A stretch of 64,000 bases of DNA, taken from Nymphaea colorata (taxonomy: Eukaryota > Streptophyta > Magnoliopsida > Nymphaeales > Nymphaeaceae). The stretch covers positions 11,854,571 to 11,918,570 of the forward strand of contig NC_045138.2 in NCBI RefSeq assembly GCF_008831285.2, in the 5' to 3' direction. Every line of letters begins with the position of its first letter. Position 1 is the first letter of the stretch. The notes under the pieces are model-generated. The model saw only the letters and a list, made by a program, of their open reading frames with translations. It was not told the DNA's origin and made no database searches. Shown here in pieces: positions 13,976 to 55,971 of this stretch. Made by a program: the position numbers and the translations under genes.

Positions 13976-15440
13976 GAGGAGGCTGAGAAGGCAATTGCTT
14001 GAGGAGGAAACATCTAGATGTAATGCAACAGAAATTTCTGAGATGGAAGTGTTTGAAACTGCTGCTCTCAAGTTGTGGATTCTGTCTCCCAAGACAATAT
14101 TAAGACAGAGAAAATGTCTTAAGAAGCTCCTCAACAAATACCGTGGTAGCGACCAGAAGAAGGAGAACATTATATTGTTCCTCTTACACTTATTTGAGAA
14201 GCATGGAAGGTTGGTGAAAGATCAGCACCAAGAAAATGCTGATGATCAATGTAAAGAGTTTTCCACTGCTCGAGATTGTTCATATGATAGGTGTAGATAC
14301 AAAGGAGATGGTACCATGCACACAGTCTCCTGTGAATAGTTTCAAAATCATATCCAATGCATTCCCGTAGCTCCTAATTCATTTAGGTGTCCCCTTTCCT
14401 TAGAAATTATGCATGATCCTGTAGTCATTGGTTCTGGTTAAACATATGAAAGAGCATGGATACAGTGGCTCGATGAGGAACATGACATATGTTTGAAAAC
14501 AGGGAGAAAGTGGCCTCATCTTTCAGTGACTCCAAATGATCGTCTGAAAAACTTCTCTAGTTGGGATGTTAAACATGGGATCACTAAGGAAGACAAAAGC
14601 ATAAGACTCACACCCTCAACATCATGCCATTGGGATGAGTCATGTTCAACCTTAGTTTCTAGTTTAGACATTTTCTTGGAAGCACCAAACTTTCTAGAAA
14701 AGAACAGAACCTCAAGACTCACTGTTGAGTTGATATCGGCAACATATCAATTGGCTCTTCATGCAGCAGTTTCTTTTCAGATTCATCATCTAACATGAGC
14801 TTTAATACTTTGAATTACAATTCATTCCAGTCACTATATTTAGCAAGTCACAAACATGGACTTCTAATCATGATTTCTTCCCCACCATTGGACTCTCAAC
14901 ATAAAGGAGCAGGAAACATTAAATTTCTACTGGAGGAACCTCATGATGTTTGTAACTCCATGTTACATAATGGTTACCTGGAAGACTTGTTGAGTTTCAC
15001 AAAAAGTGCATCTGAACCATCTGATCTAAATTCACAATGTACAAGAGGACAGGCGTTTTTGTCTTTTGTGAACAAAATGGGGTAAATTCCCATATTTCAC
15101 CTAATAATATTAAGTACTTATAACAGTTTATCATACCAACTTTGCTGGTCATGCTTAAACAGTAGAATCATGGTGGCTTTAATGTTGTTTGCATCTGAAA
15201 TAGCTGTATAGAAAACCAAGAACATGTTGTGGCCATACTCCTTTCTTTGTGCTCTCATAGTACTGGTCATCATGACTTGGTCTTAAGGGAGGGTATTATC
15301 CCTTCTCTTGTTAGTGTTTCTGTTACTGGAAATAAAAATGGGAAGAAAAGGTGCCCTCAAATTGCTCAAGTATCTGAGGGACCTGAGGCATAGCTATTTT
15401 GAGGAAGACATGACACCTTATATGAATGTTCGGTGTGAAA
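13919..15440 (+). pseudogene. U-box E3 ubiquitin ligase pseudogene (PUB45/PUB6 type)
   Basis: Functional relatives are E3 ligases with an N-terminal helical domain, a central U-box and C-terminal ARM repeats. Pieces appear in family order but in changing frames. 13919-14002 gives LELSEEEAEKAIA and then a stop. 13995-14250 gives AALKLWILSPKTILRQR and ENIILFLLHLFEKHGRLV. 14385-14600 is a U-box with CPLSLEIMHDPVVIGSG, a stop where Gln is expected, then TYERAWIQWLDEEHD and KWPHLSVTPNDRLKNF. 14600-15110 gives the linker and ARM start, with SMLHNGYLEDLL and QAFLSFVNKMG. 15279-15430 gives the C-terminus LREGIIPSLVSVSV and, after a frameshift, a KLLKYLRDLR-like segment. Much of the ARM region is missing and the N-terminal half is not visible upstream. 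A functional product is very unlikely. Its 3' part is repeated at 18749. Confidence 0.85.
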
Positions 15441-17240
15441 TACTAATAACTCAATAATCCTTGCCCCATGAAAAGAAGCTAGTGATAAGCATAAGCATCA
15501 TTTCTTCGTATGCTTAGTTGACTATGCTTGTCTTTTGAGTTTTTGAACAAACACTGGGGATGAGAGAAGCAATTACATGCTGAGGTCATTTGCGTGTAGA
15601 TAGGCATTGTAACTCTTGATTCAATTGGGTATTTTGGCCGGTTGACAACCAAGTTGGCTGTCATGTTTGAGATCCTTCAAATCTTATGTTGGTCTTCTCA
15701 TGGGTTTCATGCATGTGTGGTGGACTTCATGCTTCATTTTGTAAGAACTTGAAAGGTCATTGAAAGTCATTGGAGTTGACAAAATATTTCTTTGTAGGTC
15801 TGCCTTCATGTTTGACTTCATCCTGCTTGCCCCTGAAACAGTATATTTTTTATGCTCAACTAAAATTAGTTTATAATTATCAAATTTACAGCAGCTTTTG
15901 GTGAATCTCAATGAGTGCAAGTGAGGTTTCATTTCAGAGAAACATTCAATATGAGAATTAGAGAGTACATAATACTAATTCAAGGTGAAGTTTTCTTGCG
16001 GACAAACTGTGAAAAACTGGAACTACAAAAATGAAAACAAAAAGAAACTAACTTGCAGCAGAAAGGGCAGAATTGACCTGGTCCTGCTCAAGATCTTAGC
16101 TCGTAAGGAGAAATTTACTAACAAACATAGCAAGAGTCTCCAGAGTTTCCTGTTGCTTTAGCCAAGCAACAACATTTCTAGCTGATTTCAAAGGAAGCCA
16201 TGTTAATGCATGGAAACATCATAGTCTCATACAGAAACTCAGTAAGACATTGAAGAACAAAATTTGAAAGACATTTCATGTGGCCCTTAAACATTTGAGT
16301 GGGACTGATTAGCACTCTGGTTGTAGTGTGTTAACTTGATGCTGAAATGGGGTGGTGAGCTTTGATGCATCTCTTGGTGATCTTCATGTGACTGACTATT
16401 GTGCAACATGGTAAGCTATAGAGACCATATTCTACGATCTGCTGAACTAACTGCTTCTACGATCTGCTGAACTAACTGCAAGAATTTGGAGTAGATTAAA
16501 CATGATACACAAAAGCCGTCAGTCTTGAATGTATCAATACTAATACCCAGCAGCAATTACAAATGTAGGAGAAACTCAATATATTTCTAATCAAAACAAA
16601 TATTGTAAAAAGAAATGGCTGTCTAAAATAAGTTGATCCAGCAAGTGAAGAATAATAGCCTGGCCAATAATCTACTTTTTCACCTTCGATAGTCAACTTG
16701 TTCCATTAGTTCGTGTCAACTAACGAAGCATGTCTCCCTGCTCCTATTGTGTCCAGCATGTCTCTCTGCTCCTATTGTGTCCATAAACACGTAACCCCTT
16801 GGACCATCCCATACTAGAAAAAAGTTACAAAAATGTTTGTCAACATACAAGAATGAAACCACTTAACTGAGGACAATACTATGCCTTACTTAAATTATTT
16901 TAAACAAATGAATAAGCATAAAATGTAAATTATTGGAGAACCTTACCAAAGTTCATAACCCAAAATCAGCATATCTGGATGTGGAAAGCACGTGAAAAGA
17001 CATCATTTTAATAATTAAAAACTGCATATTAAAGCTTACACAAGGTCAATGCAGTTTCACCAAAAACAGGAAACAATAACAATAAAAGTTGCAGCAAATA
17101 CATACGTTGATCAATTATGTTTTTATCGAGAACAATCCCCATAGTCAATGGTCAAGAAAGGAAAACATGATGACGACGCATAAGATATGCAGCATCTTCT
17201 TTGGAACTTCCAATAATCCTGCCAAATTACAGAAAGAGGG
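15441..17240. other. Unassigned DNA between pseudogene and copia LTR
   Basis: I recognise no gene. There are two small tandem duplications: a 24-bp unit (tctgctgaactaactgc-type) at 16431-16479, and a 27-bp unit containing ctcctattgtgtcc at about 16727-16782. Short frames on both strands show no family features. The same sequence lies at 19161-20960 in the duplicate. Confidence 0.7.
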
Positions 17241-17711
17241 TGTTAGAATGTATGTATCCCATATGTATACATATATACATTTATATATATCACATATATT
17301 AGTCATCTAATATATGCTTTATATATATATATATATATTTTATATTTTGGGTACTTAGGACACTTATGTAATTTTCACTTTCTTTATGTATTTTTTCTTT
17401 ATGTATTATTTTCTGTTTTCCCCTTTTATCCCTCTCCTTTTTCTATTTTTCATAGAGGGAGACTAGTCCCAACGGCTAGATTTCTAGCCGTTGGGACTGC
17501 CTCCTCCTTCTTCTCTTTGGCCCTCTCCTCTATAAATAGGGCAGCTCTCCCATTGTTTTAAGTATGGCTTTTTAGCCTACTTCTTGTATCTCTTTGTGTG
17601 ATTAATTTAAGTTCTTCACCTCTTGTTTGAGGGTTTGTGAGATTGACTTGTTGGTGAAAGCTTCAAGGCTGATATTACTTGAAGAGGTTGTTTCTTTGGG
17701 CCTGATTTACA
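17241..17711 (+). mobile_element. Extra 5' LTR of the young copia element, in duplication copy 1
   Basis: It is the 3,720-bp duplicate of the LTR at 20961-21431. It starts TGTTAGAATG and ends GATTTACA, and is followed at 17712 by the TGGTATCAGAGC primer binding site. It carries the same TATA box (about 17531) and the same 34-bp palindrome (17465-17498). It is not a solo LTR: the leader and the gag start follow before the duplication junction. Confidence 0.93.
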
Positions 17712-18039
17712 TGGTATCAGAGCCTCGTCTTTGGCTCTTTGTCTTGCTGCCATTCAAGATTGAAGGTTCAGTTTTTATTCTTGCGTTGGAGCTGTGAAGC
17801 ACTCCAAGTGTTCGAGATATTGCTTGCTGCAGTTTTACACAAGAAGAAAAGTGTTTTTGCTGGCTTCTTTTTGGTGATTTCTTGACGAAATCTAGCTTCC
17901 TTGGTGGTGAGCTCGTGGCTGTTGAAAGGGTGACTGGTTTCTATCATTGTTGAGTTTTTATCCTTGCCGTGGACTTCTTTTCACGTGGTTGCCATCTTCT
18001 TCATAACTTGTAAGTGGATCTACCTTGTTGATTGTGCCC

Positions 18040-18843
18040 ATGGATGACAAAGTCTCTTCTCTTCCTTTTCCCAAACTCTCATCAACAAATTACATACAAT
18101 GGGCTAGAACTATGGAACACTTTATTCGTAGTAAAAGCCTTTGGGGACTAGTTGATGGGACAAAACTTGAACCACAACTAGTCCTTACGAAAGTTGTTGA
18201 TGGAAGGGCTATGGAATTGGATGCAACCGAAAAAGAGAAGGTAATGGCTGAATACAACAAAAAATGGGAAGAATGGAGTGTTGGTCATCACAAAATCATT
18301 ACTTGGATCTTGACTTGTGTTGACAATGCTACTAGCGGGCAAATCTCTAAATTAAATTCTGCCCTAGAAGCTTGGGAATATCTAAAGAAAATTCATACCA
18401 TGAGAGATGTTGCTTATATGCATCATGTTCAACTCAAAATTCACAATCTTCAACAAGGAGATATATCCATTAAAGATTATGTGGCTGAAATGGATCAATT
18501 ATATGATGAATTGAGTATTTTTGAACCACATTGGACACAAGATCTTATTCTTAGAGAAAAACAAATACAACGTGAGAAGTTTTACAAGTTTATCATAGGT
18601 CTTAGACCGGAATTTGATGGTGTCAAAACCGCTTTACTTCATCGTTCTAAAACACCATCTATGAATGAGGCTATTTCGGAACTTCAAATGGAGGAAAATC
18701 GTCTTTGTCTTGATAAAGAGAAAGTCAACAATGTGCTTGCCACATCTAAATTCACAATGTACAAGAGGACAGGCGTTTTTGTCTTTTGTGAACAAAATGG
18801 GGTAAATTCCCATATTTCACCTAATAATATTAAGTACTTATAA
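18040..18843 (+). CDS. Truncated gag ORF fused to U-box-pseudogene sequence
   Basis: This open frame has 267 codons from the ATG at 18040. About the first 236 residues are the N-terminal part of copia gag, identical to the full element at 21760, with the start MDDKVSSLPFPKLSSTNY and the segment GLRPEFDGVKTALLH. At 18749 it crosses the duplication junction, continues for about 30 residues in a non-native frame of the U-box fragment, and ends at the TAA at 18841. The zinc knuckle and all enzyme domains are missing. The complete LTR at 17241 could drive transcription. No function is expected from the fusion tail; a partial gag product is possible. Confidence 0.7.
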   Translation: MDDKVSSLPFPKLSSTNYIQWARTMEHFIRSKSLWGLVDGTKLEPQLVLTKVVDGRAMELDATEKEKVMAEYNKKWEEWSVGHHKIITWILTCVDNATSGQISKLNSALEAWEYLKKIHTMRDVAYMHHVQLKIHNLQQGDISIKDYVAEMDQLYDELSIFEPHWTQDLILREKQIQREKFYKFIIGLRPEFDGVKTALLHRSKTPSMNEAISELQMEENRLCLDKEKVNNVLATSKFTMYKRTGVFVFCEQNGVNSHISPNNIKYL

Positions 18844-19160
18844 CAGTTTATCATACCAACTTTGCTGGTCATGCTTAAACAGTAGAATCATGGTGGCTTT
18901 AATGTTGTTTGCATCTGAAATAGCTGTATAGAAAACCAAGAACATGTTGTGGCCATACTCCTTTCTTTGTGCTCTCATAGTACTGGTCATCATGACTTGG
19001 TCTTAAGGGAGGGTATTATCCCTTCTCTTGTTAGTGTTTCTGTTACTGGAAATAAAAATGGGAAGAAAAGGTGCCCTCAAATTGCTCAAGTATCTGAGGG
19101 ACCTGAGGCATAGCTATTTTGAGGAAGACATGACACCTTATATGAATGTTCGGTGTGAAA
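18749..19160 (+). pseudogene. Second copy of the U-box pseudogene 3' end
   Basis: A direct duplicate of 15029-15440. It contains the QAFLSFVNKMG-encoding segment at its start and the LREGIIPSLVSVSV segment near 19000, with the same stops and frameshift. It was cut off from the rest of the pseudogene by the tandem duplication. Confidence 0.85.
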
Positions 19161-21184
19161 TACTAATAACTCAATAATCCTTGCCCCATGAAAAGAAGCT
19201 AGTGATAAGCATAAGCATCATTTCTTCGTATGCTTAGTTGACTATGCTTGTCTTTTGAGTTTTTGAACAAACACTGGGGATGAGAGAAGCAATTACATGC
19301 TGAGGTCATTTGCGTGTAGATAGGCATTGTAACTCTTGATTCAATTGGGTATTTTGGCCGGTTGACAACCAAGTTGGCTGTCATGTTTGAGATCCTTCAA
19401 ATCTTATGTTGGTCTTCTCATGGGTTTCATGCATGTGTGGTGGACTTCATGCTTCATTTTGTAAGAACTTGAAAGGTCATTGAAAGTCATTGGAGTTGAC
19501 AAAATATTTCTTTGTAGGTCTGCCTTCATGTTTGACTTCATCCTGCTTGCCCCTGAAACAGTATATTTTTTATGCTCAACTAAAATTAGTTTATAATTAT
19601 CAAATTTACAGCAGCTTTTGGTGAATCTCAATGAGTGCAAGTGAGGTTTCATTTCAGAGAAACATTCAATATGAGAATTAGAGAGTACATAATACTAATT
19701 CAAGGTGAAGTTTTCTTGCGGACAAACTGTGAAAAACTGGAACTACAAAAATGAAAACAAAAAGAAACTAACTTGCAGCAGAAAGGGCAGAATTGACCTG
19801 GTCCTGCTCAAGATCTTAGCTCGTAAGGAGAAATTTACTAACAAACATAGCAAGAGTCTCCAGAGTTTCCTGTTGCTTTAGCCAAGCAACAACATTTCTA
19901 GCTGATTTCAAAGGAAGCCATGTTAATGCATGGAAACATCATAGTCTCATACAGAAACTCAGTAAGACATTGAAGAACAAAATTTGAAAGACATTTCATG
20001 TGGCCCTTAAACATTTGAGTGGGACTGATTAGCACTCTGGTTGTAGTGTGTTAACTTGATGCTGAAATGGGGTGGTGAGCTTTGATGCATCTCTTGGTGA
20101 TCTTCATGTGACTGACTATTGTGCAACATGGTAAGCTATAGAGACCATATTCTACGATCTGCTGAACTAACTGCTTCTACGATCTGCTGAACTAACTGCA
20201 AGAATTTGGAGTAGATTAAACATGATAGACAAAAGCCGTCAGTCTTGAATGTATCAATACTAATACCCAGCAGCAATTACAAATGTAGGAGAAACTCAAT
20301 ATATTTCTAATCAAAACAAATATTGTAAAAAGAAATGGCTGTCTAAAATAAGTTGATCCAGCAAGTGAAGAATAATAGCCTGGCCAATAATCTACTTTTT
20401 CACCTTCGATAGTCAACTTGTTCCATTAGTTCGTGTCAACTAACGAAGCATGTCTCCCTGCTCCTATTGTGTCCAGCATGTCTCTCTGCTCCTATTGTGT
20501 CCATAAACACGTAACCCCTTGGACCATCCCATACTAGAAAAAAGTTACAAAAATGTTTGTCAACATACAAGAATGAAACCACTTAACTGAGGACAATACT
20601 ATGCCTTACTTAAATTATTTTAAACAAATGAATAAGCATAAAATGTAAATTATTGGAGAACCTTACCAAAGTTCATAACCCAAAATCAGCATATCTGGAT
20701 GTGGAAAGCACGTGAAAAGACATCATTTTAATAATTAAAAACTGCATATTAAAGCTTACACAAGGTCAATGCAGTTTCACCAAAAACAGGAAACAATAAC
20801 AATAAAAGTTGCAGCAAATACATACGTTGATCAATTATGTTTTTATCGAGAACAATCCCCATAGTCAATGGTCAAGAAAGGAAAACATGATGACGACGCA
20901 TAAGATATGCAGCATCTTCTTTGGAACTTCCAATAATCCTGCCAAATTACAGAAAGAGGGTGTTAGAATGTATGTATCCCATATGTATACATATATACAT
21001 TTATATATATCACATATATTAGTCATCTAATATATGCTTTATATATATATATATATATTTTATATTTTGGGTACTTAGGACACTTATGTAATTTTCACTT
21101 TCTTTATGTATTTTTTCTTTATGTATTATTTTCTGTTTTCCCCTTTTATCCCTCTCCTTTTTCTATTTTTCATAGAGGGAGACT

Positions 21185-21218
21185 AGTCCCAACGGCTAGA
21201 TTTCTAGCCGTTGGGACT
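21185..21218. promoter_or_regulatory. Perfect 34-bp palindrome: inverted pair of MSA-like elements in the LTR promoter
   Basis: Two 16-base arms beginning AGTCCCAACGGCTAGA flank a TT spacer and are exactly self-complementary. Each arm contains CCCAACGGCTA, a full match to the plant MSA consensus YCYAACGGYYA, which MYB3R factors bind in G2/M-expressed promoters. It lies 33 bp upstream of the TATA box. The same palindrome is present at 17465-17498 and 26087-26120. Binding and cell-cycle control are inferred. Confidence 0.6.
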
Positions 21219-21250
21219 GCCTCCTCCTTCTTCTCTTTGGCCCTCTCCTC

Positions 21251-21258
21251 TATAAATA
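21251..21258 (+). promoter_or_regulatory. LTR TATA box
   Basis: TATAAATA in a CT-rich context, in the expected position for the U3 promoter of a copia LTR. Copies are at 17531 and in the 3' LTR near 26153. Confidence 0.75.
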
Positions 21259-21431
21259 GGGCAGCTCTCCCATTGTTTTAAGTATGGCTTTTTAGCCTAC
21301 TTCTTGTATCTCTTTGTGTGATTAATTTAAGTTCTTCACCTCTTGTTTGAGGGTTTGTGAGATTGACTTGTTGGTGAAAGCTTCAAGGCTGATATTACTT
21401 GAAGAGGTTGTTTCTTTGGGCCTGATTTACA

Positions 21432-21444
21432 TGGTATCAGAGCC
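21432..21444 (+). promoter_or_regulatory. Primer binding site of the copia element
   Basis: TGGTATCAGAGC directly abuts the LTR end and matches the 3' end complement of plant initiator methionine tRNA, the usual copia minus-strand primer. Confidence 0.9.
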
Positions 21445-21759
21445 TCGTCTTTGGCTCTTTGTCTTGCTGCCATTCAAGATTGAAGGTTCAGTTTTTATTC
21501 TTGCGTTGGAGCTGTGAAGCACTCCAAGTGTTCGAGATATTGCTTGCTGCAGTTTTACACAAGAAGAAAAGTGTTTTTGCTGGCTTCTTTTTGGTGATTT
21601 CTTGACGAAATCTAGCTTCCTTGGTGGTGAGCTCGTGGCTGTTGAAAGGGTGACTGGTTTCTATCATTGTTGAGTTTTTATCCTTGCCGTGGACTTCTTT
21701 TCACGTGGTTGCCATCTTCTTCATAACTTGTAAGTGGATCTACCTTGTTGATTGTGCCC

Positions 21760-24700
21760 ATGGATGACAAAGTCTCTTCTCTTCCTTTTCCCAAACTCTC
21801 ATCAACAAATTACATACAATGGGCTAGAACTATGGAACACTTTATTCGTAGTAAAAGCCTTTGGGGACTAGTTGATGGGACAAAACTTGAACCACAACTA
21901 GTCCTTACGAAAGTTGTTGATGGAAGGGCTATGGAATTGGATGCAACCGAAAAAGAGAAGGTAATGGCTGAATACAACAAAAAATGGGAAGAATGGAGTG
22001 TTGGTCATCACAAAATCATTACTTGGATCTTGACTTGTGTTGACAATGCTACTAGCGGGCAAATCTCTAAATTAAATTCTGCCCTAGAAGCTTGGGAATA
22101 TCTAAAGAAAATTCATACCATGAGAGATGTTGCTTATATGCATCATGTTCAACTCAAAATTCACAATCTTCAACAAGGAGATATATCCATTAAAGATTAT
22201 GTGGCTGAAATGGATCAATTATATGATGAATTGAGTATTTTTGAACCACATTGGACACAAGATCTTATTCTTAGAGAAAAACAAATACAACGTGAGAAGT
22301 TTTACAAGTTTATCATAGGTCTTAGACCGGAATTTGATGGTGTCAAAACCGCTTTACTTCATCGTTCTAAAACACCATCTATGAATGAGGCTATTTCGGA
22401 ACTTCAAATGGAGGAAAATCGTCTTTGTCTTGATAAAGAGAAAGTCAACAATGTGCTTGCCACATCTAGGCCGGGGGCCCACTTGAGACCTTATAGACCT
22501 CCTCACTTCAATCGTACAAATGAAGGAACAAGGAGAAAAATTATTTGCTATCATTGTCAAGAAGAAGGACATACCAAGCCAAGATGTCCAAAACTTAGAA
22601 TTTTTGATAAAAGAAGCAATGTTGCGGCTCAAATTCAAGAAGAGAAGAAAGAAGCAAGTTCATTCCAACTTGAGCAACTCATAAGTGCTCTTCAACCTTT
22701 TCTAAAAGGAGGAAGCACACCTTCGACTTTGGGAGCGACCGTGGCATCTACTTCTTCAAGTAAGTACTCTTGGATTATTGATTCGGGTGCATATTTTCAT
22801 ATGACTCCTTATGAATCCCTTCTCACCGAATGCACTAAAAATGATTCTTATTCCTTTGTGAAAACGGCGGATGGTACCTCTCTTGAAATTGATTTTATTG
22901 GAAATCTTGACCTAGCTTTTGGATCCAAAATTTTAAAAGTACCTCAAGTAAGACATATTCCTAAATTAAACTTAAATTTATTGTCCGTTTCTCAAATAGC
23001 CGACCTTGGTTTTGATGTAATCTTCTCACAATCCAAATGTTTTATACAGGATCGGATATCCAAGAAGATGATTGGGGAAGGTTTTAGAACAAATAATCTC
23101 TACTACATAGACTTTTTGGACCTTTCAAGACCATCTTGCAATATCTCCAAAGAATGTGACATTCAAACTTGGCATCAAAGACTTGGACATTCCAATATAG
23201 AAAAAATGTCTCATCTTCCATTCATGGAGAATTTTTGTCAAAAGAACTTTGATTGTAATGATTGTATTAAGGCTAAAATGAAAGCCTTACCTTTTGATAA
23301 TAGAAATTTTATTGCCCAAAAATCTTTTGATTTGGTGCATTCGGATGTGTGGGGACCCGCTCCTATTATGTCAAAAGGAGGATTATTGTACTATGTGATC
23401 TTTATTGATGATTATTCTAGGCATACTTGGGTTTATTTTCTCAAGCACAAATCGGAAGTATTCACAAACTTTAAGAATTTCTACAACATGATCTATACCC
23501 AATTTGGCTCAAATATCAAAGTCTTTAGAAGTGATTCGGGAGGAGAATTTATGTCAAATGATTTTCAACAATTTCTAAAAGAAAAAGGCATTGTTCATCA
23601 AAGATCTTGTCCTAACACTCCACAACAAAACGGAGTGGCCGAACGTAAACATAGGCACATTATTGAAACTACTAGAGCCCTTCTTTTATCTAAAAATGTT
23701 CCCAAAAACTTTTGGGCCGAGGCTGTTTTGACTTCAACCTATTTAATTAATAGAATGCCTACCAAACTTTTGAAACATATTTCTCCTTTTGAAAGACTTC
23801 ATCATGTTAAACCTAATTACAATAGACTTAAAGTCTTTGGTTGCAAATGTTTTGTGTTAAGTGACAAAGACGATAAGCTTTCCTCCAAAGCTATTTGTTG
23901 TGTTTTTATTGGGTATTCCGAAACTCAAAAGGGTTATAGATGTTATGATATTAAAAAAGATAAAGTTTATGTTTCTAGAAATGTGATCTTTTTAGAAAAT
24001 GAAGATGGTTTCAAAGATGAACCCAAGAAACTAGAAGATTATACTTTTCTTTGGACTAATGATATTGATGATGATGATGATATTGATGATGATGAACCCG
24101 ATAAAGGTATAGAGGTACCAATTGAAGAAGTCAACAATGATAATTCTACTCATATCATCCCTCCAAAAGAGATCTTAGTTTATAGAAGAAGAGACCCCCA
24201 AAATCAAGAAACTAATCAATCTCTTCCTAGGAGATCCCAAAGGCACATTAGGCCTCCTCAAAGATTTGTCTCTTATGAGTCTTTTTCTCCAAAATTTCGA
24301 GCTTGTATTATGGCACATCATTCTTTTCATGAGCCATCTTCTTACCTTGAAGCTAAAGAAGATCCCAATTGGATTAAAGCCATGAATCTTGAGCTTAAAG
24401 CTCTTGAAAGCAATGAAACTTGGGATATTGTGCCTCTACCAACGGGGAAAAAGACTATTGGTTGTAGATGGATCTATAAAATCAAAACTAGAAGTGATGG
24501 AACCTTAGAAAGATATAAGGCCAGACTTGTTGCCAAGGGATATGCTCAAGAATATGGGATTGATTATGAAGAAACCTTTGCTCCTGTTGCTCGCATGACT
24601 TCTGTTAGAACCCTTATTGCCATTGCCTCTGTTAAACATTGGACTATTTTTCAAATGGATGTTAAAAATGCTTTCTTAAATGGTCACCTACAAGAAGAAG

Positions 24701-25851
24701 TTTTCATGAGTGCTCCCCCTGGTTTTGATCTACCCCAAAACAAAGTTTTACGCCTTAAGAAAGCTCTTTATGGTTTAAAACAAGCTCCCAAAGCCTGGTT
24801 TGACAAGTTTAGTAGTGTCATGTTTAATCAAGGTTTTAAATTTTGCTACTCTGATACTGCCATGTTTGTAAAAACTACCTCCGTAGGTGTAATTGTTTTA
24901 TTACTGTATGTTGATGATATGGTTATTACTGGGAGTGATGATGAAGGGATTATAGAGGTAAAACACTTTCTTAGCAAATGTTTTCAAATGACTGATTTGG
25001 GAAGACTAACTTATTTTCTTGGAATTGAAGTTGCTTATAGCAAACAAGGTTATCTTCTTTCTCAAATGAAGTTTGCTAGTGAATTAGTTGACAGAACAGG
25101 TATCTCAGATGACAAAGTTGTGGATACTCCAGCAGCACTGGGAGTAAAAATGAAAATTGATGATGGAGAGATATTGGAGAATCCCACTCCTTTTCGGCAA
25201 ATAGTTGGCGCTCTCTCTTATCTCTCCATCACCAGACCTGACATTGCTCATGCTGTGCATGTGATAAGCCAATTTCAACAAAGACCCACCTCAGTCCATA
25301 TGGGAGCGGCAATGCGGATTGTCCGTTATGTGAAAAACACTATCAACAAAGGACTATTTCTGTCTTCTTCTTCTATATTAGAATTAGTTGCGTATACAGA
25401 TGCTGATTGGGGTGGAGATCCCAATAATAGGCACTCCACCACTGGTTTTTGTGTGTTTTTAGGTGACTCCTTAATTTCCTGGCGATGCAAGAAACAGAAT
25501 AAGGTATCGCTATCATCAACAGAAGCTGAATATCGAGCAATGGCAACTACAACAATGGAGATAGTGTGGCTCAAAAGCTTACTGAAAGATATGGGAATTC
25601 ATATTACGAATCCTGTCAAGCTTTGTTGCGACAACAAAAGTGCAATCTATATTGCTAGCAATCACACATTCCATGAAAGAACAAAGCATATAGAGATGGA
25701 CTGCCATTATGTTCGTGAAGAGTTCCTTCAGAAAAACATAGATCTCTCCTATGTCCAATCAGAGTATCAACTTGGCGATTTCTTCACTAAACCTCTCGCT
25801 GCTACCAGATTTAATTTTCTCCTTGGCAAACTTTCGGTTATCACACCGTAA
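21760..25851 (+). CDS. Copia gag-pol polyprotein, intact
   Basis: An uninterrupted frame of 1,363 residues encodes all proteins for capsid formation, reverse transcription and integration. From the ATG at 21760 I see: gag; a CX2CX4HX4C zinc knuckle from C263 (CYHCQEEGHTKPRC); protease WIIDSGA with Asp341; integrase zinc site H472, H477, C499, C502; integrase catalytic D529, D592, E628 with exact D-35-E spacing; reverse transcriptase WIYKIKTRSDGTLERYKARL and YVDD (D1052-D1053); RNase H D1214, E1255 (STEAEYRA) and D1291. The ATG at 21760 is preferred over an upstream non-ATG codon at 21745 because PFPKLSSTNY-type N-termini follow it. An Asp-rich stretch lies between integrase and RT. No defect is visible. 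Confidence 0.96.
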   Translation: MDDKVSSLPFPKLSSTNYIQWARTMEHFIRSKSLWGLVDGTKLEPQLVLTKVVDGRAMELDATEKEKVMAEYNKKWEEWSVGHHKIITWILTCVDNATSGQISKLNSALEAWEYLKKIHTMRDVAYMHHVQLKIHNLQQGDISIKDYVAEMDQLYDELSIFEPHWTQDLILREKQIQREKFYKFIIGLRPEFDGVKTALLHRSKTPSMNEAISELQMEENRLCLDKEKVNNVLATSRPGAHLRPYRPPHFNRTNEGTRRKIICYHCQEEGHTKPRCPKLRIFDKRSNVAAQIQEEKKEASSFQLEQLISALQPFLKGGSTPSTLGATVASTSSSKYSWIIDSGAYFHMTPYESLLTECTKNDSYSFVKTADGTSLEIDFIGNLDLAFGSKILKVPQVRHIPKLNLNLLSVSQIADLGFDVIFSQSKCFIQDRISKKMIGEGFRTNNLYYIDFLDLSRPSCNISKECDIQTWHQRLGHSNIEKMSHLPFMENFCQKNFDCNDCIKAKMKALPFDNRNFIAQKSFDLVHSDVWGPAPIMSKGGLLYYVIFIDDYSRHTWVYFLKHKSEVFTNFKNFYNMIYTQFGSNIKVFRSDSGGEFMSNDFQQFLKEKGIVHQRSCPNTPQQNGVAERKHRHIIETTRALLLSKNVPKNFWAEAVLTSTYLINRMPTKLLKHISPFERLHHVKPNYNRLKVFGCKCFVLSDKDDKLSSKAICCVFIGYSETQKGYRCYDIKKDKVYVSRNVIFLENEDGFKDEPKKLEDYTFLWTNDIDDDDDIDDDEPDKGIEVPIEEVNNDNSTHIIPPKEILVYRRRDPQNQETNQSLPRRSQRHIRPPQRFVSYESFSPKFRACIMAHHSFHEPSSYLEAKEDPNWIKAMNLELKALESNETWDIVPLPTGKKTIGCRWIYKIKTRSDGTLERYKARLVAKGYAQEYGIDYEETFAPVARMTSVRTLIAIASVKHWTIFQMDVKNAFLNGHLQEEVFMSAPPGFDLPQNKVLRLKKALYGLKQAPKAWFDKFSSVMFNQGFKFCYSDTAMFVKTTSVGVIVLLLYVDDMVITGSDDEGIIEVKHFLSKCFQMTDLGRLTYFLGIEVAYSKQGYLLSQMKFASELVDRTGISDDKVVDTPAALGVKMKIDDGEILENPTPFRQIVGALSYLSITRPDIAHAVHVISQFQQRPTSVHMGAAMRIVRYVKNTINKGLFLSSSSILELVAYTDADWGGDPNNRHSTTGFCVFLGDSLISWRCKKQNKVSLSSTEAEYRAMATTTMEIVWLKSLLKDMGIHITNPVKLCCDNKSAIYIASNHTFHERTKHIEMDCHYVREEFLQKNIDLSYVQSEYQLGDFFTKPLAATRFNFLLGKLSVITP

Positions 25852-25855
25852 GTTT

Positions 25856-25864
25856 GAGGGGGGG
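25856..25864 (+). promoter_or_regulatory. Polypurine tract
   Basis: GAGGGGGGG lies between the polyprotein stop (25849-25851) and the TG of the 3' LTR. It is the standard plus-strand primer position. Confidence 0.85.
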
Positions 25865-26336
25865 TGTTAGAATGTATGTATCCCATATGTATACATATAT
25901 ACATTTATATATATCACATATATTAGTCATCTAATATATGCTTTATATATATATATATATTTTATATTTTGGGTACTTAGGACACTTATGTAATTTTCAC
26001 TTTCTTTATGTATTTTTTCTTTATGTATTATTTTCTGTTTTCCCCTTTTATCCCTCTCCTTTTTCTATTTTTCATAGAGGGAGACTAGTCCCAACGGCTA
26101 GATTTCTAGCCGTTGGGACTGCCTCCTCCTTCTTCTCTTTGGCCCTCTCCTCTATAAATAGGGCAGCTCTCCCATTGTTTTAAGTATGGCTTTTTAGCCT
26201 ACTTCTTGTATCTCTTTGTGTGATTAATTTAAGTTCTTCTTCACCTCTTGTTTGAGGGTTTGTGAGATTGACTTGTTGGTGAAAGCTTCAAGGCTGATAT
26301 TACTTGAAGAGGTTGTTTCTTTGGGCCTGATTTACA
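25865..26336 (+). repeat. 3' LTR of the intact copia element
   Basis: 472 bp, with the same ends as the 5' LTR. It differs by a shorter TA run and an extra TTC near 26240. The target duplication GAGGG follows immediately. Confidence 0.95.
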
Positions 26337-26341
26337 GAGGG

Positions 26342-28130
26342 TTCATTACATTAGAGACATAGTATTTTAAGTTAAAAAGCCTCTCTGTCTCCGAGGTTAT
26401 ATATAATGATTATAATGGAGGAATACACTCATCTTGACTTGCCACAAGATTAGTAAAAAAAATATATGTTTAAGTAAGAGAATGGACAATTCGTGGTAGA
26501 AAGGTTTAAATCCTTCAACAAGAGAGAAAATTCAATTATCTCTAGGTCCGTCACCACCAGCGGAAAAATGTATTCTTGTTTGCATCATGTTCAAGATGAA
26601 GGAATGGAACTGAAAAGTTATATATACATCTGCAGCTCATGCCCCTGTTCCAACATTGCTCCTCCCCATCAACAACTTTGAGCAATGGTATGCATGTCCA
26701 TCTTCAAATCGCTCGTTTTTGGGGCTATCCGCTCAGCCGTTCAGGTTGTGAAAAAATGCACTTCCATTTTTCATCTCTTGATGCCCTCTTGGAATGTAAA
26801 TACTATTCTTGAACTCCCTTTACTATTACAAGATCTCTCGTTTGGATTCGTCTTTGCACATGAAGTTTTTGGTTGTTTGGGTTTTGGGGATGCCCTTTCA
26901 CCGATGGCACTGTAAGATTTAGATGCATGCTACAAGGTGTAAAACTTGCCTTATTTTTATCTTTTATGAAAGCAAAAATAACGTTGAAGATCATGAACTT
27001 TTATTTTGTTTTTGATTATTTACCTACCTGCATGTCATTGCAAGTTGCTCTTGCTTTTCACTTCTTTTTCATTACTTTTAGCACCTTAGATATGGTGCAT
27101 GCAGAAGGGCATTCTTTGGTTTCACCTTAAGGGAAGAGATTAACTGAGGTTACTATTATAGATGCCATTTTTAAGAAACATAACATTACCTGTGATGACA
27201 CCTTATAATTAGCATATGCAAAATCCATGCCAAACCCCATCCCTGGTTGCACCTCAAAACAACAAATTGCCTGATGTGCAAACAAGGTGCACCCATTTAA
27301 GAAACCTTATGTGGGAAGATAGAGCAAAGAAGAGAAATGTAATCATCAATTTAGTCGGTCAACTAATGGCGAGCTCTTCTGGTTACACAAGTTTTCAATG
27401 TAAATGTGGATAGCCAGCTATCATTCATACAGTAAAAGATGATCGAAATTCAAGAAGGTTGTTTATAGATGTCAGAATTATGTATGTATTGGTGCACTGA
27501 ACTATTAGTTTTCATTGCATTGAACTTAAATTGTAACCTTCTATTTGACAATTTTATAGGGAACGACGAGATTTGGTCGCTTCTTTCAATGGTATTGCAA
27601 CAAAAACGATTCTTACTTGTCAAAAGAAGAGAATGTAAAGTTTTTGACCGACCGATTAGAAGATGCACAAGAAGACATGTTACGCTTGAATGAGAAAAAT
27701 TGCAAAACAGGATCGTGCAAGTGATCTTGAAGTCACATATGTATGAGGAAGAAATGAATGGAATAAGGAAGTTGCATTGCTTTCCCTGTGAGCACGCAAG
27801 GCCACAAGCTAACTTCTCAATCTTCAACTCTACAAAATCACCTAAAACCTGTTGTTTACCTAAGCAACAACTCAATAGCTTGAGTTCACATTCAATCTTA
27901 AGAACATATTGAACCTGGTTTCATTCAAACATATGAAAACTAAAATGTTGCTGAAACCATTGTACATGCTCGATGGAACCATAGCAGTAGAAAATCTCAA
28001 AGTTTGAATTCTACATCTCCACCTGTAGGTTGTTCAAGGACCATGTATATTTAAATAAAGATGCAGAACTGCAGAGAGATTATAACATTGATTCAGAAAT
28101 TATGATATGCTTAACTATAGAAATGCATTT
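26342..28130. other. Intergenic DNA, a possible decayed coding stretch at 27560-27780
   Basis: No gene is recognised. At 27560-27780 (+) a coiled-coil-like reading (LTDRLEDAQEDMLRLNEKI, after a frame change) suggests an old exon, but frames break and I cannot assign a family. At 26865-26930 is a short sequence that recurs inverted at about 32270-32340. The remainder shows nothing. Confidence 0.5.
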
Positions 28131-28443
28131 CAGTTGGACTTTAGCAGCAAACTAGAGGACATCCTAACACTTTATCATCACCAAGGTTCACATGAAAAAT
28201 ATGACCCTTGCTAGTTGGCATATGTTCAGCCCAAAAAAGCACTAGATCAAACTCACGAATGGGCTAGCTGCAGGCAAACAAAAACTAAATTCAACACAGC
28301 TTCATCCATGCAGACTTTTTAACTCATAACAAATATATTTTAAAGTACATTGTTTTCGAATTAAGGTCTACAGTTTGCAATTAACCAAATTTTACTGCCT
28401 AGAAGGTTGCAAGTTTCAAAAATGTCTTTATTTTGTAAATGAG

Positions 28444-28502
<59 letters not shown>

Positions 28503-28556
28503 TTGTCCGAACAAGCATAAGAATTATGAAGCTCAAATATTATATTCTACAGCCCA
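28131..28556 (+). repeat. Exon-like repeat block, copy A (broken)
   Basis: This block recurs at 31474-31864. It starts with a tttcag acceptor-like site, then a coding-like segment (KLEDILTLY, HGSHEKYDP) with an in-frame TAG after DPC near 28214, then a long (TA)n run at 28446-28500 and a shared 3' tail. The protein family is not recognised. Confidence 0.75.
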
Positions 28557-28860: not shown

Positions 28861-31473
28861 GCCGGGCTGGGTCTCCGCAAAACAATTCAGCCTAAGGACT
28901 GACACTCCATTGGCCTAGCTGACTCGATTACTAACAGGCTGGCCTGGCCTGGCCCAATGCCCTGCCCTAGACATGCTTGAAAAAGAGAATTCTTCATAGA
29001 TTGTGAGGCACAAGGAAGGAACATTTAGATTTGGTGGATGGGTTTTGAAGCAAGTGGGCCTTGATCAATCAATATGTGAACTAGTGCAACGCTGATTAGG
29101 ATTAAAAATGGTGGTAGATACCAGGAAATGGTATAGGAAAGTAAGCATTTCAGATTAAGAACTAGAATTATGGTGGAGACCGTAAAAAGGCACTTGTGCT
29201 GCCCCTAGCTATGTACAATCTTGTTAGGTAATGAAGAAAGTTTTTAATGTTTACTGTAAGCAGAGACAATGATTGGGTGAAGTGACATTTCTCGTTCAGT
29301 GGCACTGACGACATAGTTGGCAAACTCGCGATCCAATTCATGAGTTGTCTGGGTCAGTTAGGGTCATCCATTTATTGGATCATGAGTTAGGACTCACTTC
29401 AGTTGGCTAGGATTGTCAGCTACTTACATGTTATTTTTTGTCTTGTATTGCTAGAAACTGAAGTTTGTTATTTTGTGAATTGTGAAATATATATCAATAT
29501 GTGATATTTCTAAAACAGCTTTTTTCCTACTGTAACCAGTTGTTATGTTCACTGTTAATGAATTTAAGAGTAGAAAATAATTGCACACATAAGCTATCTT
29601 CTCCTTAAGTTATTGCCTTGTTTGACATGTAACCACTAACTATACTGAACATCACACAGGCATTCATATTATATGTGATTCAGTTTTACCTATGGAAAAA
29701 ATCGAACTTGAAGTCTCGACAAACTTCCTTCTTCATCACTTGTAGAAAGAAAGCATTATGAAATTTATGACCCAACCCAATCCAATCACTAGGTTAATTT
29801 AATGCAGTGACCCAGCTATGAGCCGATCTAAGTTCCAGTCATGGCTTTGTATGTGCATTAAAGTTGAACTAGATTGCATGTTTGTATGTGCATTATTTAC
29901 TACAAATTAAAATTTTAACATTCAACATTTCTATGTGAAATTCAAATTTATTGATTTCGAATAATATAATCTATTAATGGTAGTATTTGTCACTCAAATT
30001 CTTTGTATGTATCCAATGGATTGTTGCAAAATCACATACAACATTAGTCCATCCAATCAAACCAAATTTGCAGCCACACAAACTTTTTTTGTGCATGTGA
30101 GTTAGTGGGCACCAATGGTTTTCTACTGTTAGAAAGCAACATATTGCACACAATAGTTGACATCAATTGGTTGTTTTCCATTTTTAGCAATTGTCATCTT
30201 CCATACCAAATACAAGCCGAAAACCAGTTCGTGCAAGTGGTAGTTCAATTGGAGAGATAGGTTCAAGTCGAAAAAGGAAGTCTAGTTGTTTCAATATATT
30301 AATACAATTTGATCCAACTAAATCAAACTTTGGAATATTACAAGATTAAACTTGAATACCAAACTATGCAGACCATGAAAATATTTTTGGTCACCCGTTT
30401 CCACAATGTGATTAATTAGTGACTCATGCGACTACCTCCGAACTCTCATCATATCTGATTAGTTGAAGTTTATGGTTTCATCTAGCAAAATCAACTACAT
30501 GTATAACACAAACATCCCACATCAAATGAATTTGTTTACATGGGTATTTCAAAAATTATGATGGTACGTGAAATCACCTAAATTTATCTCCAATTGTCCT
30601 TTGAAAAAAGGCCCAGCATGCATTAATTTGGGATAGATTTGATTGCCAACTTCAACAAGTTGTATGTCTAATTGTATTTACCCCTAAAATGTTGGAAACA
30701 TCATTTGCATCACACAAGAAAGTATGCTGGATCAGACAAATTCTTAAAGTGCAACATAAGAAAACAATATGCTAGTATGCAACTTTAATTACATATTACA
30801 ATAGTTAATTGTTTTAGGGAGGAGGCTCTGTGCTGGACAAAAAAGCAAACCAAAAGGCCGTCCAAACATACCTTGAGTTTGGTGAGGTTGCAAAAGTAGT
30901 AGCTTCAAGATTTATCTAGATAGCTTCACAACAAAAACCTGCTCGTAGGATCAATGGTGAAGTTCCTCATCCAGTGACAGTTTGTCAGTTTAACACCTAC
31001 ATCACAAGCTATTGATGGTTCAACCAGTTTAACCCCTTGCAGTCATAGGTGCCCAAACTACTTCTTGGATCTTGAATTTCCTATGCAAAACATGAAAACC
31101 AAGAATATTAAAAAACTATACCCCATGTTGATTGACTCAACAAACATGTCTCTATAATGTGCAAGAAAATGAAATAGTTGCAAGGTGTATATGGCAACAG
31201 AATGAGCGGTTGTTGAAGAAAGATGACAAACACGAGGCAAATGACATATGGAGATCACATGAGCTATATACATATAAGATGTTGTCAGAGGTAGAACAAG
31301 AAGAGACAAATGGTACAAATATAGTAAAGTAAAGACAGATAAACAAGCAACACAAACAAATTAAGTTAGCACTGATGATATGAGACACATATATACAACT
31401 AAATAATATTTTGAATGGTAAGAAATAGGATTTCAGAAATGTTTGTGCATCGTGGTCTTGGAAATGCTCTCTT
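28861..31473. other. Intergenic DNA with no recognisable gene
   Basis: This is AT-rich sequence without long open frames, splice-consistent exon chains or retroelement domains. Short frames near 31060-31390 overlap on both strands and show no family motifs. Confidence 0.6.
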
Positions 31474-31864
31474 CAGTTGGACTTTAACAACAAACTAGAG
31501 GATATCCTAACACTTTATCGTCACCATGGTTCACATGAAAAATATGACCCTTGCGAGTTGGCATATGTTCAGCTCAAAAAAGCACTAGATCAAACTCACG
31601 AATGGGCTAGCTGCAGGCAAACAAAAACTACATTCAACACAGCTTCATCCATGCAGATTTTTTAACTAATTAACAAATATATTTTAAAGTACATCGTTTT
31701 CAAATTAAGGTCTACAGTTTGCAGTTAACCAAATTTTACTGCCTAGAAGGTTGCAACTTGCAAGTTTCAAAAAATGTCTTTATTTTGTAAATGGGTTTAT
31801 ATATATATATATATATATAGATTTCCGAACAAGCATAAGAATTATGAAGCTCAAATATTATATT
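31474..31864 (+). repeat. Exon-like repeat block, copy B (open)
   Basis: The counterpart of 28131-28556. After a cttcag acceptor-like site it is open for about 62 codons (LDFNNKLEDILTLYRHHG and on through QLKKALDQTHEWAS) to a TAA near 31665. The codon that is TAG in copy A is GAG here. The TA run is much shorter (31799-31819). It may be the last exon of a gene or pseudogene I cannot identify. Confidence 0.7.
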
Positions 31865-32699: not shown

Positions 32700-33542
32700 T
32701 CAGTTCTTTCCCCAATAATCCTGCAGGGAGAAGTCCCAGCACTCTGAGGCGGAGCAAGTCATCGGTGAGGGAGGAAGAAAGTCCAAAAGCAGCGGCTGGC
32801 CAATATCCACAACCTGGTTCTTCTGTTGATCGGTATCCATCGGCTTGTTATTCTCTCCTTCAATTTGGGGTAGGAATTCAAAAATTTGGGGTAGAGATTC
32901 AAAAAACTCAAACAATTCCTTGTCCTCCGTCATCCACTGGGTTTTCTCATCAATATCACCAAATGCAGAGTCCAACGCCACCAAAGGCTCAACGTCCTTA
33001 CTGATGGAGCCGCAGGAAGGAGACAGAGCAACTAGCTCCAAATTCTGACGCTTCACCTGCTGGAGCTCCTGCTCTAGGCGGTGGTTCTCTTCTAAAAGGA
33101 ACGACGGAGGGGAAGAGCAATTCTGAGGATTTTGCCGCTTGTCGATGCTTTGGCAGGGATGGATCATGGCAGAGGGCTCCTCAGGTCGTGTGAGCAACGG
33201 GGGCGGTGGAAATGATGTGGAAGAATGATTGCGCCGTTTGCCGTCGCCGACGCTCTCCAAGCGATGGATGATGCGGAGAAGGTCGGAGGACTCCTCAGGC
33301 CATGTGAGAGGCGGCGGTGAAGGAAGGGACGAAGATGAACCTCTGCCGTCTTCGCCGGGAGGAGGAAGGAGGATGACGCAAACGTCAATGCCAACGAGGG
33401 TGGACAGCTCGCGTGCCTTCTTCAGAAGTCCCTTGCCCCGCCTGGCGAAGGTCGCCGCGCTACGCCCGGACGGCAGCCGCAGGCTCCCCACGTTGCTCGT
33501 GCTTCTTCTCTTCTTCTCCTTCATCGTCACCGTCGCTTTCAT
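32700..33542 (-). CDS. Type I MADS-box transcription factor, intronless
   Basis: A nuclear DNA-binding factor. Type I (M-type) MADS proteins mostly act in the female gametophyte and endosperm. The 280-residue frame has a divergent MADS domain at about residues 8-64: a basic start (KEKKRR), then SGRSAATFARRGKGLLKKA and RELSTLVGIDVCVIL, matching the family's KGLLKKA.ELS.L.G....V core. A Pro-rich linker (70-143) is an imperfect internal duplication: SSLPSPPPLTWPEE parallels TSFPPPPLLTRPEE. A heptad-like helix follows at 149-170 (LLEENHRLEQELQQVKRQN), then an acidic C-terminus. There is no K-domain, and the single exon is typical of type I. The start could also be Met7. A TATA box lies at 33621-33627. 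The weak match in the first 25 residues of the domain is unusual, and I cannot say which subclass it belongs to. Confidence 0.85.
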   Translation of the reverse strand: MKATVTMKEKKRRSTSNVGSLRLPSGRSAATFARRGKGLLKKARELSTLVGIDVCVILLPPPGEDGRGSSSSLPSPPPLTWPEESSDLLRIIHRLESVGDGKRRNHSSTSFPPPPLLTRPEEPSAMIHPCQSIDKRQNPQNCSSPPSFLLEENHRLEQELQQVKRQNLELVALSPSCGSISKDVEPLVALDSAFGDIDEKTQWMTEDKELFEFFESLPQIFEFLPQIEGENNKPMDTDQQKNQVVDIGQPLLLDFLPPSPMTCSASECWDFSLQDYWGKN

Positions 33543-50310: not shown

Positions 50311-50443
50311 TTAACCGTGAAACCTTCTCGTTCTTTCCCTCTCTCCTTTTTTGTCTTAAATCTGTCTTCCCACTTCTGCCTTCTACTGAACCTCAGCTAC
50401 CACAGAAGGCCGTGCTCCCTCTGTGAGTCCTGATAGTCACAGT

Positions 50444-50912
50444 TGTAAGATCATTTGGTAGGCCGGCATATGTTTATGAGGAATTTCAGACATTATAACT
50501 GTCTTAACGTAAATATCCGCTTAAGTGATTGCATTTTGGGATATTACGTCATTTTAGATGGTATGTGGTAATTTTGAAATGTATAAATACCTGTACGCAA
50601 TTACGGATTCTTTGATGGGTTGAATCCGTAATTGCCCTTAATATAAAATGGCAGTGGTCCATGGGGTTGTGCAATGGTTGCTTGAAACGTTGGTTTTTAG
50701 GGTCTTCTTCTTCCCCATTTGATAGAGAACTCAAGCGCGCCGCAAAGGCCCTGGAAGATCCTACCGCGATCTACCGTCCAGTTCTTCAGATGGATTCAGG
50801 TACGCTTCTGCTACAGTTAAGTTTATTTTGTTTAATTCAATGATTTAGCATGAGCATGATCCTGTTTTAGAGCATATCGTTTGTGTATGCATGAAGGGGA
50901 GAAATCCCAACA
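50444..50912 (+). repeat. 5' LTR of the degenerate copia element
   Basis: 469 bp. It pairs with 55972-56435. Confidence 0.92.
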
Positions 50913-50989
50913 ATTGCTATCAGAGCCCATGTTCATTGTTCAATCGTTGATTTTTTGGATGATTTTGTGCGTCTCCCCATTCGGATGTT

Positions 50990-51660
50990 CCTTTCTTCGG
51001 CTGCAAGTATTGTTTTAAAAAAAAAAAATCTGGAAAGGGGGCGACGCTTCCATCGCGTGTGCGATGGAAGCCATCGGCTTCCGTCGCAACCGAACAAAGG
51101 GAGGAGAAACGGCCGGATTCGGCCGTTAAGATGGGATGGGTGGGCAGCGACCGCTGGCTTCGGGCGACGGCTGGCCGCTCGCTTGCCGTGCGCCCTGCCT
51201 TCGATTTTTGAAAGGAACGGGCAGTGAGGGACGATGGCGGGAGAAGAGGGCTTTGCCCACCTCCGTCCGGCCATGTCCAGCATCGCCGGGGAGTTCACCG
51301 TCGCCGGACGGCACCGTGCGACGCACTGGTGCCCACCCACAGCCTGCTGGTGGCTTTTGGGGGCCGCTTCAGCCGCACAAATCCTTGAAAGGGGGCCGAT
51401 TTGCAATCAGGAGAAATCCAGCCGTTTTCGGCTGGTTTTTGGTAGGCGACGGCCGGCCATCGCGGCGGGCGATGGCCGGCCGTCCTCGCGACGCCCGCCG
51501 GCGGCCACCCACGGAGTTGGGTGGCCTGCCGGTGGAAGACCACCGCCCGCGACCGCTCGCGAGGTCGAGCGGGCGGGTCGGGTCTTGAAAGACCCGATCC
51601 GGATCCATCAGCTTTAAAAAAAAAAATTTCTTTCGCCCGCCCGCCTGTGCCTCCGCTTTT
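50990..51660. other. GC-rich, CpG-rich leader of the degenerate copia element
   Basis: Between the primer binding site and the repeat array is a strongly GC-rich block full of GGCCGGC, GCGGCC and CGACGG words, in contrast to the AT-rich surroundings. Long overlapping frames on both strands are side effects of base composition. No family motif is seen. Confidence 0.75.
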
Positions 51661-55521: not shown

Positions 55522-55971
55522 CATGTTGTTCGTATGAGGGTGTTATCCTTGGATGATGTGCTGGATTAGTGAGAGTTTGTATTTTGTTTGCTTTTATGTA
55601 TGGACACATATTCAGTTTTCTGCAGAATAAAGTTTAAAGTTCTTTGGTTCCATTCTGTGTTTATGTGTTTATGTTTTGATCTCCATAAGGTTTTAAAGTT
55701 GGACCAGTTGAGAATAGACATGTTGTAATCACATTACATGTAATTCTCATGCTATACATCCATATCAGATCTATGTCATTGGTTGTGTTAACATTTACGA
55801 TCATTGAAGGTTTAACTAATTTTAATATAGCGAAAGCCGCTTTGGTTCTGTGTTGATATGGTCATGGACAAGATTGGTGAAAATGACGTTTAATAAGATA
55901 ACAATTATGAGCTCCTAAGGTTTTGTGTAATGTCTGAATGTATAAAGACATATTTGGCCCAAGTGGGAGAT

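Follow-up and report, generated by a model that had tools for sequence, protein, structure and literature searches.

A Ty1/copia element with a palindrome in its LTRs

The 64,000-nucleotide stretch of the Nymphaea colorata genome analyzed here (hereafter the window) holds a Ty1/copia retrotransposon whose long terminal repeats (LTRs) carry a perfect 34-bp palindrome shortly before a predicted TATA box. Judging from its sequence and relatives, this palindrome is probably a promoter dyad that a copia clade outside the Sireviruses has conserved close to the TATA box. The element is bounded by the target-site duplication GAGGG (20956-20960 and 26337-26341) and displays, on the forward strand, a 5' LTR (20961-21431, 471 bp), a primer-binding site TGGTATCAGAGC (21432-21443), presumably of the tRNA-Met type, a single open Gag-Pol frame (21745-25851) with the copia order of gag, integrase and reverse transcriptase (RVT_2), a single polypurine tract (PPT) GAGGGGGGG (25856-25864) and a 3' LTR (25865-26336, 472 bp). 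In the Gag-Pol frame, the Pfam families run in the order gag_2/gag_3, Pol_BBD, gag_pre-integrs, rve, SH3_retrovirus and RVT_2; for the RNase H part no Pfam family was recovered at E<=0.001, with only Ribosomal_L7Ae appearing at E 0.05, under the cut-off. The two LTRs show no substitutions over 469 aligned positions, differing by a 2-bp and a 3-bp indel, and the insertion is therefore recent. Membership in the Sireviruses was rejected, as 13 nt lie between the stop codon and the 3' LTR and there is one PPT, whereas Sireviruses have a long linker and multiple PPTs. The element also has one dyad per LTR in place of the high-copy CGG-CCG motifs of that group, whose position and CGG-CCG symmetry it does match; this by itself does not exclude a Sirevirus, some of which are without the motif.

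The palindrome, with 16-bp arms around a TT spacer, occupies 21185-21218 in the U3 (unique 3') region of the 5' LTR and recurs identically at 26087-26120 in the 3' LTR and at 17465-17498 in a third LTR copy (17241-17711, forward strand), exactly as the original prediction had it. The third copy belongs to a 3720-bp tandem duplication, in which 15024-18748 is repeated as 18744-22468 with a single mismatch and ATCTA at the junctions, and which takes in the 5' LTR, part of gag and flanking DNA; it is either a recent real event or an assembly artefact. Thus, while the palindrome is indeed present in all three copies, these are not independent of each other: stemming from one insertion and the tandem duplication of its 5' LTR, they amount to one observation, and we rejected them as evidence for conservation.

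The consensus of the mitosis-specific activator (MSA) element is, in full, YCYAACGGYYA. Each arm of the palindrome, in all three copies, contains a box CCCAACGGCTA of this type (in the 5' LTR, forward at 21188-21198 and reverse at 21205-21215), which agrees with the consensus and has its AACGG core; the consensus is matched six times in the 64 kb, always inside the palindromes (shuffles: mean 0.15, largest 2). The predicted TATA box TATAAATA (21251-21258, forward strand) is separated from the end of the palindrome by 32 bp, rather than the 33 bp first given, and this proximity would fit the location of MSA elements near the transcription start site (TSS). MYB cores are common (57 instances of AACGG/CCGTT in the 64 kb), and one might suspect a random palindrome that happened to match the MSA consensus. 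This is refuted by the controls: when the LTR was dinucleotide-shuffled 2000 times, no inverted repeat (counting those whose arms have 30% G+C or more) exceeded 11 bp as against the 16 observed, which rules out a chance origin of the palindrome; an MSA match arose in 3 of 2000 such shuffles; and the 26-bp core of the palindrome, CCAACGGCTAGNNNNCTAGCCGTTGG, has 233 exact occurrences genome-wide versus 0 for its reversed control.

Retention of the palindrome across copia families

In the 408-Mb genome that holds the window, a probe from the LTR sequence 3' of the palindrome (21219-21431) gave 187 candidates, and the 40 that were scored, which include three of the window's own, are 88-100% identical LTRs, many of them paired ~4.9 kb apart. 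The exact 34-mer is found in 26 of these 40, and MSA matches number two in 30 of them, one in nine and none in one. The losses include C-to-T and G-to-A changes at the CpGs of the boxes, which, one in each box, are the only two CpGs of the window LTR.

To reach more distant families, the reverse transcriptase (RT) protein of the window element was used as a query, yielding 11,428 candidates, 150 of which were scored. The 3' LTR regions were taken for 58 rows with 82-100% RT identity (the first being the window itself), 27 rows with 73-78% and six rows with 64-70%; left out were the partial RT matches of at least 82% at C6:19938144, C4:1106650, C11:12440821, C11:6364795 and C7:10174669, the remaining 70-81% rows, every 64-70% row except these six, and the unscored candidates. 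Divergent LTRs with the palindrome had also been reached via an exact arm, and in nine of these loci its conservation ranked high; as such loci are preselected for the palindrome, the count was redone on the RT-chosen stretches. Mismatches were scored over 22 fixed positions of the 26-bp core, and a stretch with at most three was termed a carrier. By this measure, 71 of the 85 stretches in the two closer groups are carriers: 47 of 58 at 82-100% RT identity (33 perfect, 14 with 1-3 mismatches and 11 without the core) and 24 of 27 at 73-78% (21 perfect, three with 1-3 mismatches and three without). No member of the 64-70% group comes within three mismatches (two have four and four have six), because box types swap among the promoter types. 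Control palindromes with permuted arms never fell below five mismatches in 2400 trials on 60 of the RT-chosen stretches. Two loci, L083 and L088, were counted as lacking the core since the palindrome in their stretches belongs to an opposite-strand neighbor. Of the 71 carriers, all but L090 have a TATA match 25-85 bp downstream, compared with 574 of 4550 positions drawn at random from these stretches, and the core-to-TATA distance is 33-48 bp in 72 of 76 cases when the six deepest rows are included. The original prediction had offered absence or degeneration of the palindrome in other family members as one way of refuting it; this comparison has now been made, and the reading survived it both among the subfamily copies and across the RT-found families that keep the 26-bp core. 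Relatives of the element were not detected in IMG/VR and GTDB contigs.

The sequence around the palindrome has diverged extensively between these families. Between the window and the L112 type, the palindrome is identical at 26 of 26 positions, and identity is 0.68 over the 100 bp upstream (30 shuffles: mean 0.64, maximum 0.66) and 0.70 over the 90 bp downstream (30 shuffles: mean 0.59, maximum 0.68). The silent-site divergence (dS) between the window RT and L145, the RT of the same element as L112, is 1.13; further values relative to the window are 1.35 for L146, 1.45 for L147, 1.51 for L148, 0.18 for L149 and 0.16 for L059. The carriers of the core include families with saturated RT silent sites (sampled dS >1) and flanks barely above shuffles.

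Template switching corrects quasi-palindromes during reverse transcription, and it might be argued that the palindrome was born and corrected in this way and then shared by descent and LTR exchange, with no selection at all. The arm of the window subfamily is more perfect than that of its relatives (GGGACT for GGAACT), as self-correction would give, and the palindrome has suffered deletions and duplications in L083, L111, L138, L134 and L125. That exchange occurs is indicated by discordance between RT and LTR: the L082-type elements have RTs 90-96% like that of the window, and promoter flanks that more closely resemble the family whose RT is 77% identical (L082-L112 flank identity 0.74 and 0.79, versus 0.69 and 0.67 for L082-window). 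However, a sequence that is evidently deletion-prone has been kept in 71 of 85 stretches, with flanks near shuffle level and sampled RT dS >1, and we consider the absence of selection to be very improbable. Given some other force that maintains the boxes, template-switch correction could nevertheless preserve the similarity of the arms.

Several other features were noted in the course of this survey. The elements L082, L084, L087, L092-L096 and L099 (RT 91-96% identical to the window) have promoter flanks nearer to the 77%-RT family, suggestive of LTR or U3 exchange between copia families. The only copia lineage available for comparison was a second one in the window itself, where direct repeats at 50443-50914 and 55971-56437, 91.5% identical, are probably the LTRs of an older element around an RVT_2 frame at 54640. 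Its left repeat has a perfect dyad with 14-bp arms (50597-50635), 6 bp before TATAAAA and without an MSA match; in the right repeat the dyad has decayed slightly. Dyads close to the TATA box may be more widespread among copia elements. Between these probable LTRs lies a G+C-rich perfect inverted repeat with 16-bp arms and a 5-bp spacer (51448-51484). Elsewhere, 28129-28546 and 31472-31864 form an imperfect direct duplication, with pieces 95-100% identical, ~3.3 kb apart and near an SRF-TF (MADS-box) frame at 32700-33542. A CCGTT at 6205 was considered as LTR-related and dropped, that region giving weak matches only.

Box turnover and dyad symmetry

Seventy-six arrays with a following TATA match, in which TATA adjacency is by construction, were clustered by flank identity into 12 promoter clusters, of which two, L125 and L134, seem to have arisen from larger ones by internal rearrangement. 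As many surveyed copies are closely related, the independent witnesses are nearer in number to these promoter types. The window type has the inner box pair only, its subfamily consisting of many near-identical copies in which the outer boxes are gone and the inner pair has stayed, and the L004 type adds a third forward box, CCAATGG in L004 itself and CCAACGGCTAG, CCAACGACTAG, CCAACTACTAG or lost in related LTRs reached via the exact arm. The L112, L082, L105 and L128 types have four boxes in the order reverse-forward-reverse-forward, with AACGG in the inner and AACAG in the outer boxes; in the L139 type the inner boxes are AACAG and the outer ones AACGG, and in the L142 type all four are AACGG. 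All 12 cluster representatives have one or more boxes that match the strict MSA consensus, and 10 of them have at least two; the first position varies between C and T, both of which the consensus permits. The motif CCAAC.GCT is invariant in all seven four-box representatives, and CTAG is kept in all but the 64-70% families, the conserved stretch being longer than the AACGG core. The identity of the AACGG-type boxes thus turns over, with AACGG boxes remaining before the TATA box.

In the sister families, the four-box arrays are alternating boxes that form a dyad of ~32 pairs. For the seven four-box representatives, a 32-pair consensus stem of -51 kcal/mol is predicted, with 94.5% of cells paired, and at 12 pairs both sides have changed, where shuffling predicts 5.3 (none of 500 shuffles reached this number, and slid registers gave 2-4), a comparison that draws on seven related sequences, and thus few independent events, with a structure from the same alignment that biases towards such a result. 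The flanks outside the boxes pair as well, with letters differing per family. These features speak for a dyad conserved as structure, that is, a hairpin of the genomic RNA near its 3' end (U3 in the 3' LTR) or a cruciform in the DNA, which would serve stability, packaging, 3'-end formation or dimerization and conserve the boxes as part of its stem. The hairpin, a side remark of the original prediction, accordingly merits more weight than it was given, as sister families keep a far longer dyad with paired changes. However, the box letters are nearly fixed, though any pairing letters would serve; there is no one-sided G-U step within the box pairs, the few G-U cells falling in the linkers and outer end; and the window-type and L004-type LTRs have shorter stems in place of the four-box one. 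The lack of G-U steps in the box pairs and the fixed letters together mildly favor a dyad acting at the level of DNA rather than one that is purely an RNA stem, and conservation primarily as structure strikes us as unlikely.

A search of the window between 14 and 30 kb against Rfam returned nothing at E<=1, and a further search, covering eight loci, gave 25 matches, none at the gathering score. The L139-type dyad (L139:620-701), from a family with 64-70% RT identity, aligns to the full MIR405 model (RF00768) with 44.6 bits and E 9.7e-6 in 13.8 kb. We rejected a known RNA family here, given that this match is far under the gathering score of 102 and occurs on both strands, and that unrelated miRNA models match too. 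It is a lead only, and prompts one to ask whether copia U3 dyads figure among the annotated miRNA hairpins of plants.

A candidate MYB-box module and its known counterparts

We propose that the palindrome represents the simplest version of a U3 module next to the TATA box that a Ty1/copia clade has kept, and that would consist of two to four boxes of the MYB type (CCAAC(G/A)GCTA and near variants), their alternating orientation generating the dyad. A host MYB protein is predicted to bind these boxes, which lie ~33-48 bp before the TATA box, and thereby set when the LTR is transcribed; the best candidate would be a MYB3R acting via the MSA element, tying genomic RNA synthesis to G2/M in dividing cells. 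It is the MSA consensus together with the TSS-proximal multi-box layout that suggests MYB3R and division-linked transcription. We are confident that a conserved functional module exists; if so, MYB-type factors are its likely ligands, and, among these, a MYB3R with division-linked expression is favored somewhat less strongly. MYB3R as the factor and cell-cycle timing are plausible on the basis of the motif, and less secure than the transcriptional function that position and conservation point to. As a whole, a MYB-box promoter dyad with MYB3R and G2/M-tied transcription is the best explanation at hand, to be held tentatively. The fuller scenario, with a mitosis-type MSA dyad kept by the clade through saturating divergence, MYB3R transcribing the element in dividing cells and box turnover preserving AACGG before the TATA box in every type seen, is possible and more doubtful still.

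The type-I (R2R3) MYB site is YAACKGHH. Both window boxes fit this site and the MYB2 core, so that the motif cannot separate MYB3R from R2R3-MYB, and this is the first of several points that weigh against the proposal. The inner boxes are AACGGC, and not the AACGGT of the MYB3R1 matrix; in the L139 type, just one box matches the strict MSA consensus; and the length of the dyad and its pairing beyond the boxes exceed the needs of two MYB sites. Within the subfamily, the palindrome is no better conserved (0.988) than the remainder of the LTR (0.980), ranking 223rd among 438 windows, which is expected for young copies, yet lends no support. The core is missing from 14 of the 85 stretches, and L085 became a carrier only after its stretch was widened following a nearby arm match, the count being otherwise 70 of 85. 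In three of the 14, L111, L138 and the LTR of L083 itself, the inner palindrome was visibly deleted between short flanking direct repeats, leaving single boxes. Given the discordance of the L082 type, LTRs have been exchanged and RT distance is no strict clock for them; such exchange may have spread the promoter module. The survey, moreover, is of a single genome. The MYB3R and G2/M reading of the original prediction is thus upheld in part: the MSA consensus and the TATA-near, multi-box layout of variable orientation stand with it, and the AACGGC inner boxes and the fit to R2R3-MYB do not.

The ambiguity of the boxes invites the alternative that the conserved dyad is bound by another factor, an R2R3-MYB or a dimeric protein recognizing CCAACGGCTAG, with stress- or tissue-linked expression. 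Besides the match to the type-I site and MYB2 core, the conserved stretch with CTAG, longer than AACGG outside the 64-70% families, points this way, as do the HSF, WRKY, TCP, DOF and GATA factors described as driving other plant LTRs (PMC12786077) and the Sirevirus palindromes, reported to match mainly stress-related PLACE sites (PMC2829016). The presence of the strict 11-bp MSA consensus in all 12 representatives, with C or T at its first position as allowed, argues for MYB3R over such a factor, which we regard as rather unlikely, if less so than a purely structural role.

Were the MYB3R reading correct, the element would produce its RNA in meristematic cells, from which lineages lead to the germline. 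An early, separate germline is considered to be lacking in plants (PMC10980394), and an LTR element should therefore gain from activity while meristem cells divide. A conserved mitotic promoter module would achieve this directly, and the cell-cycle machinery would join heat and immune factors in driving plant LTRs. The likeness to the MSA elements of G2/M genes lies in the AACGG core (PMC9730800), the YCYAACGGYYA context, and the several boxes near a predicted TATA box in variable orientation: MSA promoters are described as having several boxes near the TSS with variable orientation, and SCL28 promoters two to four, in both orientations in Arabidopsis (PMC10905365). Unlike those of G2/M genes, the LTR boxes form a dyad with a 17-bp spacing of the inner cores and an AACGGC inner pair; the MYB3R1 matrix contains ACCGTT, i.e., AACGGT, and a tomato table in the same source lists the MYB3R1 motif in elements of the EPRV (endogenous pararetrovirus) type (PMC8725346).

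Our search of PMC papers found no report linking MSA or MYB3R to an LTR promoter. In a 2025 review of host factors of plant LTRs, MYB is absent from the main text, and 'cell cycle' appears twice, once for LINE-1 and once in the title of a cited work (PMC12786077). A hidden Markov model study of plant Retrofit and Sire LTRs names TATATA and TGTAAC(C)A, and mentions neither MYB nor palindromes (PMC3601003). The recruitment of host transcription factors by LTR promoter motifs is itself well precedented by ONSEN with HSFA2 and EVADE with WRKY (PMC12786077); unlike the candidate proposed here, their factors are stress or immune ones. Maize Copia LTRs offer another parallel, in that they have concentrated palindromes, suggested to be kept for cis-regulation despite their small-RNA cost (PMC10760457), and the dyad described here, likewise a palindrome in a Copia LTR, bears on why copia LTRs retain palindromes despite their cost as small-RNA templates. 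It differs from the maize hairpins, whose commonest motif is CACCGGACNNNGTCCGGTG and for which the motif description notes no MSA boxes (PMC10760457). The closest known kind is provided by the Sireviruses, whose LTRs have palindromic CGG-CCG motifs before the TATA box, proposed to be cis-regulatory (Bousios et al. 2010, PMC2829016). These are short, occur in at least eight copies per element in 13 of 21 Sireviruses, and were reported absent from 'classic' copia elements (PMC2829016). Hence, the two share the CGG-CCG symmetry, the pre-TATA position and the proposed cis-regulation; in contrast to the Sireviruses, the present clade has one dyad or an array of two to four boxes per LTR, with boxes of the MYB/MSA type, a 13-nt linker and a single PPT.
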